Shown here: positions 10,631 to 17,060 of the stretch, piece after piece
Layout of the letters: every line of letters begins with the position of its first letter
How positions within the stretch are numbered: the stretch's first letter is position 1
NCBI GenBank assembly: GCA_945868805.1
Contig: CAMBMO010000017.1
Coordinates: 1-46,836 of the forward strand
DNA length: 46,836 bases
Direction of reading: 5' to 3'
DNA from: Singulisphaera sp. GP187
GTDB taxonomy: Bacteria; Planctomycetota; Phycisphaerae; Phycisphaerales; SM1A02
Translations under genes and position numbers: made by a program
The notes under the pieces: generated by a model
Databases searched by the model: none
Seen by the model: only the letters and a program-made list of their open reading frames with translations
What the model was told of the DNA's origin: nothing

Positions 10631-11686
10631 ATGACGAAATCCATGGTCTTTCTTTGTCCAGGACAAGGCGCGCAATCCATCGGCATGGGAAAGTCTTGGT
10701 GTGAATCGGGCGGAGCAGGAGCCGATATCTTCGCCCGAGCGGATCGAACGATCGAACTCGCATCGGTCGGAGCGTCGCTCTCAACACTCTGCTTCAATGG
10801 ACCAGCCGAGTCGCTCAATCGAACTGATGTTTGTCAGCCCGCCCTCTACACCTGCGCAGTCGCCAGCTTTCATTCGTTGCAGGACGAATTCGACCGGCCA
10901 ACGGTCGTTGCGCTCGCAGGGCTTTCACTCGGTGAGTACACCGCCCTCCATCTCGCGGGCGCGTTCTCTTTCGAAGACGGACTGCGACTTGTCGCGATCC
11001 GCGGGCGACTGATGCAAGAAGCCGCGCAAGCCAGCAAGGGGGGAATGGTTGCATTGATCGGCGCTGACGAAGCTCAGGCACAAGCGGTCTGCGACAGCGC
11101 TGCGCCATCGGGATCTGGCGAAGTACTCGTCTGCGCGAATTTCAATGCGCCTGGCCAAATCGTCCTCTCTGGACATGCGACTGCGTGCGACCGTGCCCTC
11201 GAACTCGCTTCGACTGTGGGTTGTCGTGCGGCGAAACTTCAAGTTGCAGGAGCATTTCACTCCCCGCTCATGGCACCCGCGGCAGAGTCGATGCGAAGGG
11301 CTCTCGAGAATGTGCAATTTCAGCCGCTCAAGTATCGGGTTTGGAGCAACGTGACAGCCCAACCGCATGCCGCCAACGATGCCGCGACATTGAAGAAACT
11401 CCTTGTCGATCAGATAGTTTGCCCCGTAAGATGGAGCGAGAGCATGTCGTCGTTGATTGCGGAGTTTCCCGCTGGCGACAACTGCCCCGCGTTCCATGAA
11501 TTGGCGCCGGGTAGCGTGCTGAAGGGACTGATGCGTCGGATTGACAAGAATTGCGAGATCATGAGCCATGACAAACCAGACAAACCAGACAAACCAGACA
11601 AACCAGACAAACCAAACAAACCAAACAATCATGACACCGCACCCAAATCAGACGATCCAAGGCAGTTGGAATCTCCGCGCTCATAG
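10631..11686 (+). CDS. fabD: Malonyl-CoA:ACP transacylase with a repeat-encoded tail
   Basis: Transfers malonyl from CoA to ACP. The oxyanion motif PGQGAQSIGMG is near the N-terminus, the nucleophile Ser is in GLSLGEYTALHLAG, and the catalytic His is in GAFHSPLM. I take the ATG at 10631 (GGAG 8 bases upstream) over the upstream TTG at 10580, which would overlap fabH. The family usually ends at about 310 residues; this protein is 351 because it carries a hydrophilic tail with DKP repeats encoded by a 9-bp tandem repeat. The last 119 bases overlap the next gene in another frame. The enzyme assignment is firm; the tail is probably disordered. Confidence 0.94.
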   Translation: MTKSMVFLCPGQGAQSIGMGKSWCESGGAGADIFARADRTIELASVGASLSTLCFNGPAESLNRTDVCQPALYTCAVASFHSLQDEFDRPTVVALAGLSLGEYTALHLAGAFSFEDGLRLVAIRGRLMQEAAQASKGGMVALIGADEAQAQAVCDSAAPSGSGEVLVCANFNAPGQIVLSGHATACDRALELASTVGCRAAKLQVAGAFHSPLMAPAAESMRRALENVQFQPLKYRVWSNVTAQPHAANDAATLKKLLVDQIVCPVRWSESMSSLIAEFPAGDNCPAFHELAPGSVLKGLMRRIDKNCEIMSHDKPDKPDKPDKPDKPNKPNNHDTAPKSDDPRQLESPRS

Positions 11687-12449
11687 CATTTTCGCGCTCT
11701 CGGCTTCGGTCTGCATCATTGCCTCCGCCGCGCTCATCTCTTGCGGCGAAGAAGAAGCTCCACCTCCACCCATCGTGAGAGCAGAACCACCACCGCCACC
11801 GCCGCCACCTGAACCGACCGTCAAGTCGATTGCTGAGCTCATGACGGAATACGACATCGACTCCAGGATCGACTTGCCCGAAACATTGGCACCTGACACC
11901 AACGAAAAGCGCATCGCTGTACTGAAGTTCTGGAACGCCTTCGCCAAGGGCGACGATCAGTACGCATCGGGCCGTATGGCCGAACTCGATCGGAAAGTCC
12001 TGAACGACCTTGTGAAGAGTGGTTCTTGGAAGACGACGACGGGCGCCATCACATCGATCGAAGTTCAGTGCAAGGATGATGAAGGTGGCTTTGCAACCTT
12101 TGGTCTCATCACTGCTGGTGGCGCTGAACAAGCCATGCTCTGGGATGCGGTTCAGTCCGGCGATGATTCGGTCTTTACGGCGTTTCCAGGGACCCACGAC
12201 ATCCTCGCGCATCTTTCGGGCGAAGATTCCATCGGCTCATGGAAGATCTATATCAATGGACTTTTCGAGAAGTACTCGAATCTGCCAGACGAGCAGGTTG
12301 AGATTCCTCAAAGCGATGTTCAACTCGCTGAAGGATCCGATTCTGGAGTTGGTGGCGGTGGCGAAACTCCGGCCCCACCCGATGGTGGCGGTGGTGGCGG
12401 TTCGGGTGGCGGAGTGCTCAAAAAGAAGCCTCACGCTCCGCTTCCTTGA
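11568..12449 (+). CDS. Lipoprotein of unknown function with Pro-rich and Gly-rich linkers
   Basis: 293 residues from the ATG at 11568, or 272 from the ATG at 11631, which places the signal peptide nearer the N-terminus. The hydrophobic run ending in the lipobox LISC predicts lipid attachment at the Cys. After it come an acidic stretch, a poly-proline linker (about eight Pro in a row), a globular segment (ELMTEYDIDSRIDLPETL, VLKFWNAFAKGDD) and a Gly-rich tail ending in basic residues. I do not recognise the globular part. It overlaps the fabD tail by up to 119 bases. It occupies the place where fabG stands in the usual cluster, so it may have entered the cluster when fabG was moved. Confidence 0.8.
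   Translation: MTNQTNQTNQTNQTNQTNQTIMTPHPNQTIQGSWNLRAHSIFALSASVCIIASAALISCGEEEAPPPPIVRAEPPPPPPPPEPTVKSIAELMTEYDIDSRIDLPETLAPDTNEKRIAVLKFWNAFAKGDDQYASGRMAELDRKVLNDLVKSGSWKTTTGAITSIEVQCKDDEGGFATFGLITAGGAEQAMLWDAVQSGDDSVFTAFPGTHDILAHLSGEDSIGSWKIYINGLFEKYSNLPDEQVEIPQSDVQLAEGSDSGVGGGGETPAPPDGGGGGGSGGGVLKKKPHAPLP
11571..11624 (+). repeat. 9-bp tandem repeat read in two frames
   Basis: Six consecutive copies of ACAAACCAG, the last two ending in A. In the fabD frame it reads as Asp-Lys-Pro, then Asn-Lys-Pro; in the frame of the next gene it reads as Thr-Asn-Gln. Because the unit is three codons, copy-number changes alter tail length but never shift either frame. Confidence 0.95.
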
Positions 12450-12514: not shown

Positions 12515-13249
12515 TTACATCGCTAGGCCGCCGTCAATCGACAGCACCTGCCCGGTGAGGTATCCCGCTCCGTCAGATGAAACATACGAGACCCCAGCTG
12601 CGATATCGCTTCCGGTCCCGAATCGCTTCAGTGGAATCGCTGGCAGGACAGCTTCGCGAAGCGCCGCTGGAAGGACGCTCGTCATGTCCGTCTCGATGAA
12701 TCCAGGAGCGATCACATTCGCTGTGATTCCCTTGCCGCCAAGCTCCTTTGCGATCGACTTTGTCAGCCCGATGATGCCCGCTTTCGCGGCGGCGTAATTC
12801 GCCTGTCCCGCGTTCCCCGTGATTCCTGAAACCGATCCGATATTGACGATGCGTCCGAAACGGCCACGCATCATCGGACGCGCCGCCGTCCGGCAAGCAA
12901 CGAACGCCGACCTCAGATTCACGCGCAGGACATCGTCGAAGTCCTCATCACTCATGCGTAGGATCAAACCGTCCTTTGTGATTCCGGCATTGTTGACCAT
13001 GATGTCCAAACGTCCGTGGCGCTCGGCGACCGCTTCGATCGCCGCGGCAAATCCCGCGCCGTCCCCGACATCGCACGATTGCATCTCGCACGATCCACCC
13101 GCACCCTTGATCTCCGCCTCAAGCGAAGTCAGTTGCTCTGCATTGCGCGCAAACCCCACGACATGGCGACCATCCGCTGCGAGCCGGATCGCGATCGCTC
13201 GACCGATGCCTCGACTCGCTCCTGTGACAATGGCTACTCGCTTTTCGAT
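12515..13249 (-). CDS. fabG: 3-oxoacyl-ACP reductase, apparent ATC start
   Basis: NADPH-dependent reduction of 3-oxoacyl-ACP in fatty acid elongation; a short-chain dehydrogenase. From the ATC at 13249 the protein is 244 residues, exactly the family length, and begins (M)EKRVAIVTGASRGIGRAI with the complete cofactor motif. The catalytic residues are Asn in VNNAGIT, Ser in NIGSVSG and Tyr/Lys in YAAAK. Between the in-frame TGA upstream (near 13331) and this point there is no in-frame ATG, GTG, TTG or CTG. The ATC has a perfect AGGAG six bases upstream. The first downstream ATG or GTG would remove the glycine motif. The gene points opposite to all other fab genes around it. The function is firm; the start codon is inferred. 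Confidence 0.93.
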   Translation of the reverse strand: MEKRVAIVTGASRGIGRAIAIRLAADGRHVVGFARNAEQLTSLEAEIKGAGGSCEMQSCDVGDGAGFAAAIEAVAERHGRLDIMVNNAGITKDGLILRMSDEDFDDVLRVNLRSAFVACRTAARPMMRGRFGRIVNIGSVSGITGNAGQANYAAAKAGIIGLTKSIAKELGGKGITANVIAPGFIETDMTSVLPAALREAVLPAIPLKRFGTGSDIAAGVSYVSSDGAGYLTGQVLSIDGGLAM

Positions 13250-13386
13250 GGTGGACTCCTTCTGTGCTCTGTGCTGGAGGGCTTCGGGGCGGGGATCATA
13301 ACCTCGTGGCTCAGCGATTCGCTTTTGGCATCACCGGGCGAGACCACGGTCGCCCATCAAAGCCGATTCTCGTTATCATCCGAATC

Positions 13387-13461: not shown

Positions 13462-13740
13462 GTGACAGAAGCTGAGATTCAAGAAAAGGTCATCGCCATC
13501 GTCGCCGAGCAGATGGGTGTCGACAAGGCTGAAATCAAGCGAGAAACCAGTTTTACGAACGATCTCAACGCCGACAGCCTTGACATTGTCGAATTGGTTA
13601 TGGAATTCGAGGATCAATTCGGAACCTCCATTCCGGACGATCAGGGCGACAAGATCCAGACCGTTGGATCGGCGATCGATTACATCAAGACGAACTTCGG
13701 CGCGGGTCCAAAGGGCGATGCGGCGAAGTCCGCGAGCTGA
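13462..13740 (+). CDS. acpP: Acyl carrier protein
   Basis: Small acidic carrier of acyl chains in fatty acid and lipid synthesis. Residue Ser39 in [19 protein letters not shown] is the phosphopantetheine attachment site. The start is GTG, supported by GAGGAG eight bases upstream. At 92 residues it is about 14 longer than most ACPs because of a C-terminal extension ending in [14 protein letters not shown], rich in Gly, Ala, Lys and Ser. It is followed by fabF, as in the usual cluster. Confidence 0.96.
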
Positions 13741-15065: not shown

Positions 15066-17060
15066 ATGCCGCGCAACCTTCCTGTCGGCAACGGAGAAAT
15101 GCTCGTTGCATTCGACGACCTCTATCGAGTTCGTGACTTGTACTGGCCGCACGTTGGCATGCCGAACCACACGTGCGGGCACCTCCAGCGATTCGGCGTC
15201 TGGGCTGACGGACAATTCGCGTGGATCGAGAGTCCAGGCTGGTCCCGCGAATTGAACTATGTCCAAGATTCGCTCGTGACGGATGTCCGGCTTCGAAACG
15301 ACCGACTGGGAATCGAACTGCACTGCAAGGACGCCGTGGACTACTGGAGCCCCGTCTATTTCAAGTCCGTTCAAGTGACCGATTTGCACAATCGCCCACG
15401 CGATGTGCGACTTTTCTTTCATCAAGATCTCTCGATCGGCGAGAGTGCCATTGGCGACACTGTGAATTACGACCCGCAAACAGGCGGGCTCATCCATTAC
15501 AAGGACGACACGTACTTTCTCTTCAATGGATCGGGCGCGCGCTCCTACGGCGTCGATACATGGTCGACGGGACAGAAGCGCATCCGAGATGCGGAGGGAA
15601 CTTGGCGCGACGCCGAGGATGGCCTCTTGTCCCGCAACACGATCGCGCAAGGGTCGGTCGATTCGACGGTCGGATTCTCGCTGATGCTGCTTCCGGGCGG
15701 ATCGTCGACCGTCACCTACTGGACGTGCGCAGGGCGCAACTACGCAGATGTAAAGGCGCTCGACGACAAGGTTCGCAACAAGACCCCGCAGCGCATGATG
15801 TTGCGTACGGAGGCGTATTGGCGCCTTTGGGCGACGAAAGAAGGATTCGACTTTTCGCCACTCTCCAAGTCTGTGCGCGATCTCTTCATCCGCAGCGAGT
15901 TAATCGTGCGCACGCAGATTGATCACGATGGCGCGATTATCGCGGCGAACGACTACGACATCACGCGATTCGCCGGCGACACCTATTCGTACATGTGGCC
16001 TCGTGACGGGGCACTCGTCTCGCATGCACTGGTCCTGTCCGGACAAAGCGAGCTCTCGCAGGAATTCTTTCGATTCGCACAACGGGTCATCGAGAAGAGC
16101 GGGTACTTCCTCCACAAGTACAACCCCACTGGGACTCTCGCGTCGAGCTGGCATCCGTGGACACTTGATGGCAAGCGAATCCTGCCCATTCAGCAAGATG
16201 AGACTGCGCTCGTCGTCTGGGCACTCCGACGGCATTTCTGCACATTCCGCGATGTCGAATTCATTCGCGATCTTTACAACCCGCTGATCGTCGACCCTGC
16301 GAGTTGGATGATTCGCTACCGCGATCCCAACGGTTTGCCCATGCCATCGTGGGATCTCTGGGAGGAGCGTCGCGGAGTTCATCTCTTCACGGTCGCGGCG
16401 ACCATTGGCGCGTTGAAGGCAGCTGCTTCATTCGCCCACGAGGTTGGCGCGCTCGATCGCGCGATCGAGTTCGAGCAAGGGGCAGAGCGGATGCGGGATG
16501 CGATGTTTCGCCATATGTGGAGTCCAGAACGAAACATGTTCGCGCGGATGGCGACACCGCTTCCAGATGGCGGGTACGAGTTGGACTTCACCGCCGACGC
16601 GAGCGCGTGCGGGCTTTTTGCATTTGGCGCAGTCGACGCCAACGACCCGCGCGTCGTCGCGCACATGCAGATGCTGCGCGAGAAGTTGTGGGTTCACACA
16701 AATATCGGCGGTATGGCGCGATACGAGCGTGATCCATACCACCAAGTGGAGAGATTCGATACGGGACGGGTTCCGGGAAACCCGTGGATCATCACAACAC
16801 TTTGGTACGCGCAGTGGTTGATCGAACGTGCGCACACAGAAGAGGAACTTGCCGAAGCACAACCACTCCTCAAGTGGACCTGTGATCGAGCATCCCCATC
16901 GGGCGTCCTCGCGGAACAATTCGACCCCTACTCGGGAGCGCACCTTTCCGTGAGTCCGCTGACATGGTCGCATGCGGCGTTTATGACGACGGTGCTGAAG
17001 TACTTGCAGCGTCACACGCAACTCACCGGCGTCCAGCACGGCGTATCGGCACGAGCATGA
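15066..17060 (+). CDS. Glycoside hydrolase family 15 (glucoamylase-like)
   Basis: Probable exo-acting glucan or oligosaccharide alpha-glucosidase; some family members act on trehalose. 664 residues: an N-terminal beta-sandwich domain (about 1-260) and an (alpha/alpha)6 barrel. Diagnostic segments are YMWPRDGAL in the substrate pocket and SWDLWEERRGVHLFT, whose Glu fits the general acid of GH15. I see no signal peptide, so it is probably cytoplasmic and may act on stored glycogen or trehalose. It starts 10 bases after fabF, and its stop overlaps the next start as ATGA. The exact substrate is not clear. Confidence 0.9.
   Translation: MPRNLPVGNGEMLVAFDDLYRVRDLYWPHVGMPNHTCGHLQRFGVWADGQFAWIESPGWSRELNYVQDSLVTDVRLRNDRLGIELHCKDAVDYWSPVYFKSVQVTDLHNRPRDVRLFFHQDLSIGESAIGDTVNYDPQTGGLIHYKDDTYFLFNGSGARSYGVDTWSTGQKRIRDAEGTWRDAEDGLLSRNTIAQGSVDSTVGFSLMLLPGGSSTVTYWTCAGRNYADVKALDDKVRNKTPQRMMLRTEAYWRLWATKEGFDFSPLSKSVRDLFIRSELIVRTQIDHDGAIIAANDYDITRFAGDTYSYMWPRDGALVSHALVLSGQSELSQEFFRFAQRVIEKSGYFLHKYNPTGTLASSWHPWTLDGKRILPIQQDETALVVWALRRHFCTFRDVEFIRDLYNPLIVDPASWMIRYRDPNGLPMPSWDLWEERRGVHLFTVAATIGALKAAASFAHEVGALDRAIEFEQGAERMRDAMFRHMWSPERNMFARMATPLPDGGYELDFTADASACGLFAFGAVDANDPRVVAHMQMLREKLWVHTNIGGMARYERDPYHQVERFDTGRVPGNPWIITTLWYAQWLIERAHTEEELAEAQPLLKWTCDRASPSGVLAEQFDPYSGAHLSVSPLTWSHAAFMTTVLKYLQRHTQLTGVQHGVSARA

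Follow-up and report, generated by a model that had tools for sequence, protein, structure and literature searches.

How does a normally essential gene begin when the place where its start is required offers ATC and nothing conventional? The question is raised by fabG in the 46,836-nucleotide stretch of DNA analysed here (the window), in which the minus-strand frame at 12515-13249 encodes FabG, a predicted ketoacyl-ACP reductase. The translation scores 312.8 bits against the NCBIfam equivalog profile TIGR01830 (cut-off 297.75), with residues 6-242 aligned to profile positions 1-238 of 239, and it contains TGASRGIG and YAAAK, which we take to be the TGxxxGIG cofactor motif and the YxxxK motif of FabG. 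A single close FabG was found in the window's genome, the next best match being 32% identical.

Read in the direction of the gene, the start region runs AAGGAG, TCCACC, ATC (13249-13247), GAA AAG CGA GTA GCC ATT GTC ACA GGA, and the frame is open from the TGA at 13333-13331 down to the stop that ends at 12515. The initial annotation had placed the fabG start at this ATC, behind an AGGAG six bases away, and had claimed both that canonical starts are missing between the upstream TGA and the ATC and that the first later start would cut away the cofactor glycine motif. Each of these points held: AGGAG lies 6 nt from the ATC, the 27 in-frame codons between the TGA and the ATC include no ATG, GTG, TTG or CTG, and a start at the first canonical codon downstream, the GTG at codon 31, would remove TGASRGIG from the protein. 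The features of the locus are collected in Table 1.

Table 1. Features of the fabG start region and its divergent neighbor, in window coordinates.
Feature	Position	Strand	Basis
fabG, 3-oxoacyl-ACP reductase, 244 aa from ATC	12515..13249	-	TIGR01830, Pfam PF13561/PF00106, translation
AUC start codon of fabG (very probable)	13247..13249	-	direct reading; ATC shared at this codon by 85 of the 144 family loci
Shine-Dalgarno AAGGAG, 6 nt before AUC	13256..13261	-	6-nt match, spacing 6
in-frame upstream stop TGA of the fabG frame	13331..13333	-	direct reading
GTG at fabG codon 31, first downstream canonical codon, rejected as start	13157..13159	-	
TATGAT, -10-like element, predicted fabG promoter	13295..13300	-	TAT(A/G)AT in 18 of 18 genus loci
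acpP, GTG start, divergent neighbor of fabG, control gene	13462..13740	+	TIGR00517 above cut-off

Searches of the genus and the family covered 160 genomes, 147 of which gave a FabG match at E 1e-60 and 13 none (18 of 19 genus genomes and 139 of 151 family genomes were matched). The closest match on a named contig, L047 (89%), carries the label Singulisphaera sp., followed by an uncultured bacterium (L048, 68%) and by contigs named as Phycisphaerales or Phycisphaerae (L049, 61%; L078, 60%); the family that carries the AUC start would seem to lie in or near Phycisphaerales. The start region was read in 144 family fabG loci from 43 genera, rows inside one genus being non-independent. Three matched genomes stand outside this table (G159 and G113, with cut matches, and G026, whose locus L265 is without alignment), and a second, partial fabG copy in G068 was excluded from the count.

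Alignment with close relatives, where the initial annotation had said that an ATG would overturn its proposal, found ATC at the same codon in 15 of the 18 genus loci (the window included) and, across the family, 85 ATC (30 genera) against 12 ATG, with one ATT and 46 other triplets. All 12 rows with ATG at exactly codon 1 belong to two genera, g23 and g26. Among the 46 other rows, 31 have ATG, GTG or TTG within 8 codons, and 13, assigned by eye, begin at an ATT or ATC 3-10 codons upstream, 12 of these moved starts being accompanied by a Shine-Dalgarno match. For example, L140 and L224 carry ATT at the place where their genus-mate L138 has ATG, and the moved start is ATT in L217, L221, L240, L250 and L259 and ATC in L242, L254 and L263. 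The other three genus loci have, one codon upstream, ACA (L015), ACG (L016) or ATG (L020), the same triplet behind AAGGAA; if used, the ACG would be another weak start and the ACA a very odd one. Altogether, 45 of the 144 rows fall outside the AUU/AUC count (43 that are canonical at or near the place, plus L015 and L016), which indicates that the weak fabG start is dispensable.

Our preferred explanation, which as a whole we consider likely, is that fabG begins at a weak AUC start that is kept by selection, is discriminated against by initiation factor IF3 and limits FabG. Its parts differ in firmness: AUC is very probably the fabG start, its maintenance by selection is quite probable, and IF3 discrimination is the operative brake towards which we lean, in line with the initial annotation's idea of weak initiation limited by initiation-factor discrimination. 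At the level of sequence, support comes from the AUC itself, the Shine-Dalgarno element, the absence of a second usable start from the window, the conservation of the triplet, the recurrence of AUU or AUC at moved starts and a set of ordinary initiator tRNAs. Since most of the relatives read keep the odd start, we take it to be a probable built-in brake and not an error. Mechanistically, the ordinary initiator fMet-tRNA (anticodon CAU) would start fabG at AUC with a mispair at the third position, and a strong, well-spaced Shine-Dalgarno element on a short leader would permit this. Initiation at AUC, the efficiency of which was reportedly measured in E. coli by Hecht in 2017, would be inefficient in these cells, and IF3, judging from precedent, would discriminate against it. 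The weak codon would in this way tune FabG output, and we propose that selection across the family maintains it for keeping FabG synthesis low and, as for infC, sensitive to IF3.

The alternative that survives best, though it is clearly the less probable, is that the AUC start is real but neutral, little FabG being needed and the weak start having been fixed by mutation and drift with no IF3-linked role. Frequent, unclustered switching of the start state on an rpoB tree and canonical starts in 43 of 144 relatives are in keeping with drift; the identity of the codons is not, since ATC occupies the same codon in 30 genera, where ATT appears once and GTG, TTG and ATA never, and the 13 moved starts are again ATT or ATC. 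A single transversion, moreover, would restore ATG, and the acpP and fabF genes of 30 family loci all have canonical starts at or near the N-terminus.

These two genes also served as controls. The homologous start codon of acpP is GTG in 30 of 30 family loci, and fabF, which adjoins acpP, satisfies in 30 of 30 a uniform rule that accepts any ATG, GTG or TTG from codon -12 to +5 with the frame open; the oddity is thus specific to fabG and does not extend to these fatty-acid genes in general. Under the same rule, 75 of the 144 family fabG loci have no canonical start, a state seen in 0 of 78 loci of other bacteria and in 0 of 31 of sister families (0 of 11 and 0 of 20; these 31 were available or hand-chosen from the sister-family matches). 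The acpP codon itself, compared at window positions 13462-13464 and in loci L318-L347 and L418-L437, is also GTG in the sister families f2 and f4 (9 of 9 loci) and ATG in f5 and f6 (11 of 11), L422 having an additional GTG two codons upstream. It looks, on this alignment, to be likewise strongly conserved, and more deeply than that of fabG.

Two broader causes were considered and rejected. A genome-wide habit of ATC starts found no support in a 447-kb sample of the genome that carries the window, made up of the window itself and 400 kb of other stretches, where no second credible ATC start appeared: the best starts of 301 gene calls were ATG in 250, GTG in 34, TTG in 13, GTC in 3 (weak or low-complexity calls) and ATC in 1, which was fabG. 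A scan for a Shine-Dalgarno match of at least 5 nt followed by AUN returned 37 sites, 3 of them without an upstream canonical codon, and among those three only fabG had a coding signal before the next start; the sensitivity of both scans is limited, since they missed infC even though its ATC start is inside the sample. Gene order does not account for the start either, ATC being found in 18 of 23 loci in which acpP is divergent and in 22 of 32 in which acpP lies downstream on the same strand (a set that includes two sister-family loci).

An rpoB tree built from 26 family genomes and 4 outgroups, all hand-chosen, was used to follow the history of the start; two of its representatives (G062 and G044) are canonical and belong to genera in which ATC also occurs. 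The start, scored as either AUU/AUC or canonical, requires at least 10 changes on this tree; shuffled labels gave a mean of 10.2 changes, and 291 of 500 shuffles were as low, so that the states cluster no more than shuffled ones and one ancient gain followed by many losses is not told apart from repeated gains. Both larger clades have ATC at the same homologous codon, which points to an early origin and repeated reversion to canonical starts; alternatively, the AUU/AUC start may have been gained repeatedly. Either history must explain why a normally essential gene keeps or regains a poor start. In two genomes, rpoB is matched as a pair of neighboring pieces, each with its own open frame (G022, contig C11, 173018-176768; G033, contig C6, 202502-206274), which may be split genes, frameshifts or assembly errors.

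Very improbable is a canonical start further upstream that would make the ATC an internal isoleucine codon. Some canonical codon does lie upstream in frame in 41 of the 85 ATC rows, within 8 codons in 10 of them; such codons are absent, however, from the other 44 rows, among them the window, for which the sequence rules this reading out, and 75 of the 85 have none within 8 codons. The codon also behaves unlike an internal isoleucine. The isoleucine triplets at codon 1 across the family are ATC 85, ATT 1 and ATA 0, whereas the same 85 ATC rows give ATC/ATT/ATA counts of 69/11/4 at Ile7 and 63/14/0 at Ile15 (Fisher P = 1.3e-4 and 1.6e-4 when rows are counted, 0.002 when rows are collapsed into genera). 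That ATT and ATA are nearly missing at codon 1 indicates that the triplet ATC is conserved, rather than isoleucine.

The region in front of the codon likewise has the character of a leader. A Shine-Dalgarno match of at least 4 nt precedes ATC in 77 of the 85 loci, against a background of 17% at random upstream positions of the same loci; 65 of these 77 matches lie 6-8 nt from the ATC, and 8 of the 85 rows show no match by the measure used. Codon 1 lies 29-31 nt behind the TAT(A/G)AT element in 17 genus loci and 51 nt behind it in the window; over the 18 loci this distance is spread across all three frames (9, 5 and 4), from which it follows that the stretch before the ATC is leader and not coding. 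By its sequence, TAT(A/G)AT resembles a -10 box, and as such it would leave most of the upstream in-frame codons outside the transcript. The leader of the window (13250-13300) is about 21 nt longer than in the 17 genus relatives. In the window, L022 and L043, the predicted folding of the RNA near the start was unremarkable (z -1.23, 1.65 and 0.87).

A special initiator tRNA, for instance one with a GAU anticodon, could read AUC as a fully efficient start, and the codon would then not be weak. This seems scarcely probable, since the 43 tRNA matches in the window's genome (95.8% complete) comprise two identical CAU initiator genes, whose GGG/CCC anticodon stems were read by eye, and one GAU tRNA, a tRNA-Ile; no initiator-like tRNA with a non-CAU anticodon was present among the 43. 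With this ordinary CAU set, AUC would most likely be decoded by the normal initiator through a third-position mismatch.

Less probable still is a downstream start that would leave the ATC region untranslated. The GTG at codon 31 is the first canonical codon of the frame; no Shine-Dalgarno match precedes it in the window, however, the cofactor motif would be lost, all 18 genus loci share the peptide RVAIVTGA beginning at codon 4, 16 of them with EK at codons 2-3, and codon 1 is ATG in the 12 rows of g23 and g26. Finally, a sequencing or assembly error or a private mutation in the window's genome is of negligible probability: that assembly does consist of 47 contigs, but the same codon occurs in 85 family loci from different genomes, and an ATC common to most relatives is neither an error nor a recent private mutation.

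AUU, AUC and AUA form a start class that is a well-known target of IF3 discrimination, and the gene for IF3 itself, infC, was found in each of the 41 family genomes examined. Its start, read by eye, could be assigned in 24 of 30 family loci, as ATC in 16, ATT in 5 and ATA in 3 (in two of these loci, L293 and L299, an ATT two codons downstream is an equally good candidate); of the remainder, 5 lacked the motif and L314 was unreadable. In the window's genome, infC appears to start at ATC. From these sequences, the infC of the family in which fabG starts at AUC appears to begin at ATC, ATT or ATA. The fabG start shares the marks of an infC-type start, namely an AUN codon, no canonical alternative at the required place, a strong and well-spaced Shine-Dalgarno element and conservation. 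One may tentatively ask, although we think it rather doubtful, whether in this family fabG and infC are translationally paired under IF3, a shared AUN class tying fatty-acid elongation to the state of the initiation machinery. Were that so, membrane synthesis would follow the balance of ribosomes and IF3, and the coupling would be kept or regained when the start site moves.

Weak starts of this kind have precedents. E. coli pcnB encodes poly(A) polymerase, which, unlike FabG, is no core metabolic enzyme. Its AUU start nonetheless resembles that of fabG in that an inefficient start codon limits expression, according to the title of a study cited in PMC13009471. The infC gene starts at AUU in E. 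coli, ATC in Streptomyces and AUA in S. aureus (PMC5472188, PMC13009471), placing it, like fabG, in the non-AUG AUN class discriminated by IF3; infC differs in being autoregulated by its own product, whereas fabG encodes a metabolic enzyme on which control would act in trans. Streptomyces sigR, as described in PMC5472188, has a conserved non-canonical start behind a strong Shine-Dalgarno element, as fabG does; the codon is GTC in 32 of 34 species and GTT in 2, is repressed by IF3 and is misannotated in public genomes. It is, however, the GTC start of a sigma factor in one genus, as opposed to the AUC start of a core biosynthetic enzyme in many genera. PMC13009471 likewise describes conserved AUN starts with strong Shine-Dalgarno elements for ccpN (AUA, in S. 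aureus and B. subtilis) and the staphylococcal gene cvfC1 (AUU); in S. aureus reporters these starts yielded about 10% of what AUG gave in poor medium, and that of ccpN up to 30% in rich medium. These genes encode a repressor and a small protein, unlike fabG, and AUC is nowhere mentioned in that paper. General background on initiation fidelity is given in PMC11497404.

No connection of fabG or Phycisphaerales with an AUC start was found among the literature matches listed, which mostly did not extend to subscription journals. The kind of weak start is thus known from infC, pcnB, sigR, ccpN and cvfC1, and a fatty-acid enzyme with an AUC start over 30 genera is new as far as we have searched. 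If the proposed brake is real, the gene of a core, normally essential enzyme would join the short list of natural genes restrained by a non-AUG start, and selection on start-codon identity would act across about 30 genera instead of one. The switches on the rpoB tree, at least 10 between AUC/AUU and canonical states, offer ready material for comparisons that address the purpose of weak starts. We would also predict that gene finders limited to ATG, GTG and TTG cut or wrongly extend FabG in these genomes.

Two further features of the neighborhood were observed. At about 11560-11690, the 3' end of a fabD-like open reading frame (DKPDKPDKPD...) overlaps the start of the next frame (MTNQTNQTNQT...), the overlap consisting of one short DNA repeat read in two frames. 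Directly after fabF, at 15066-17060, lies a glycoside hydrolase family 15 gene (PF00723).
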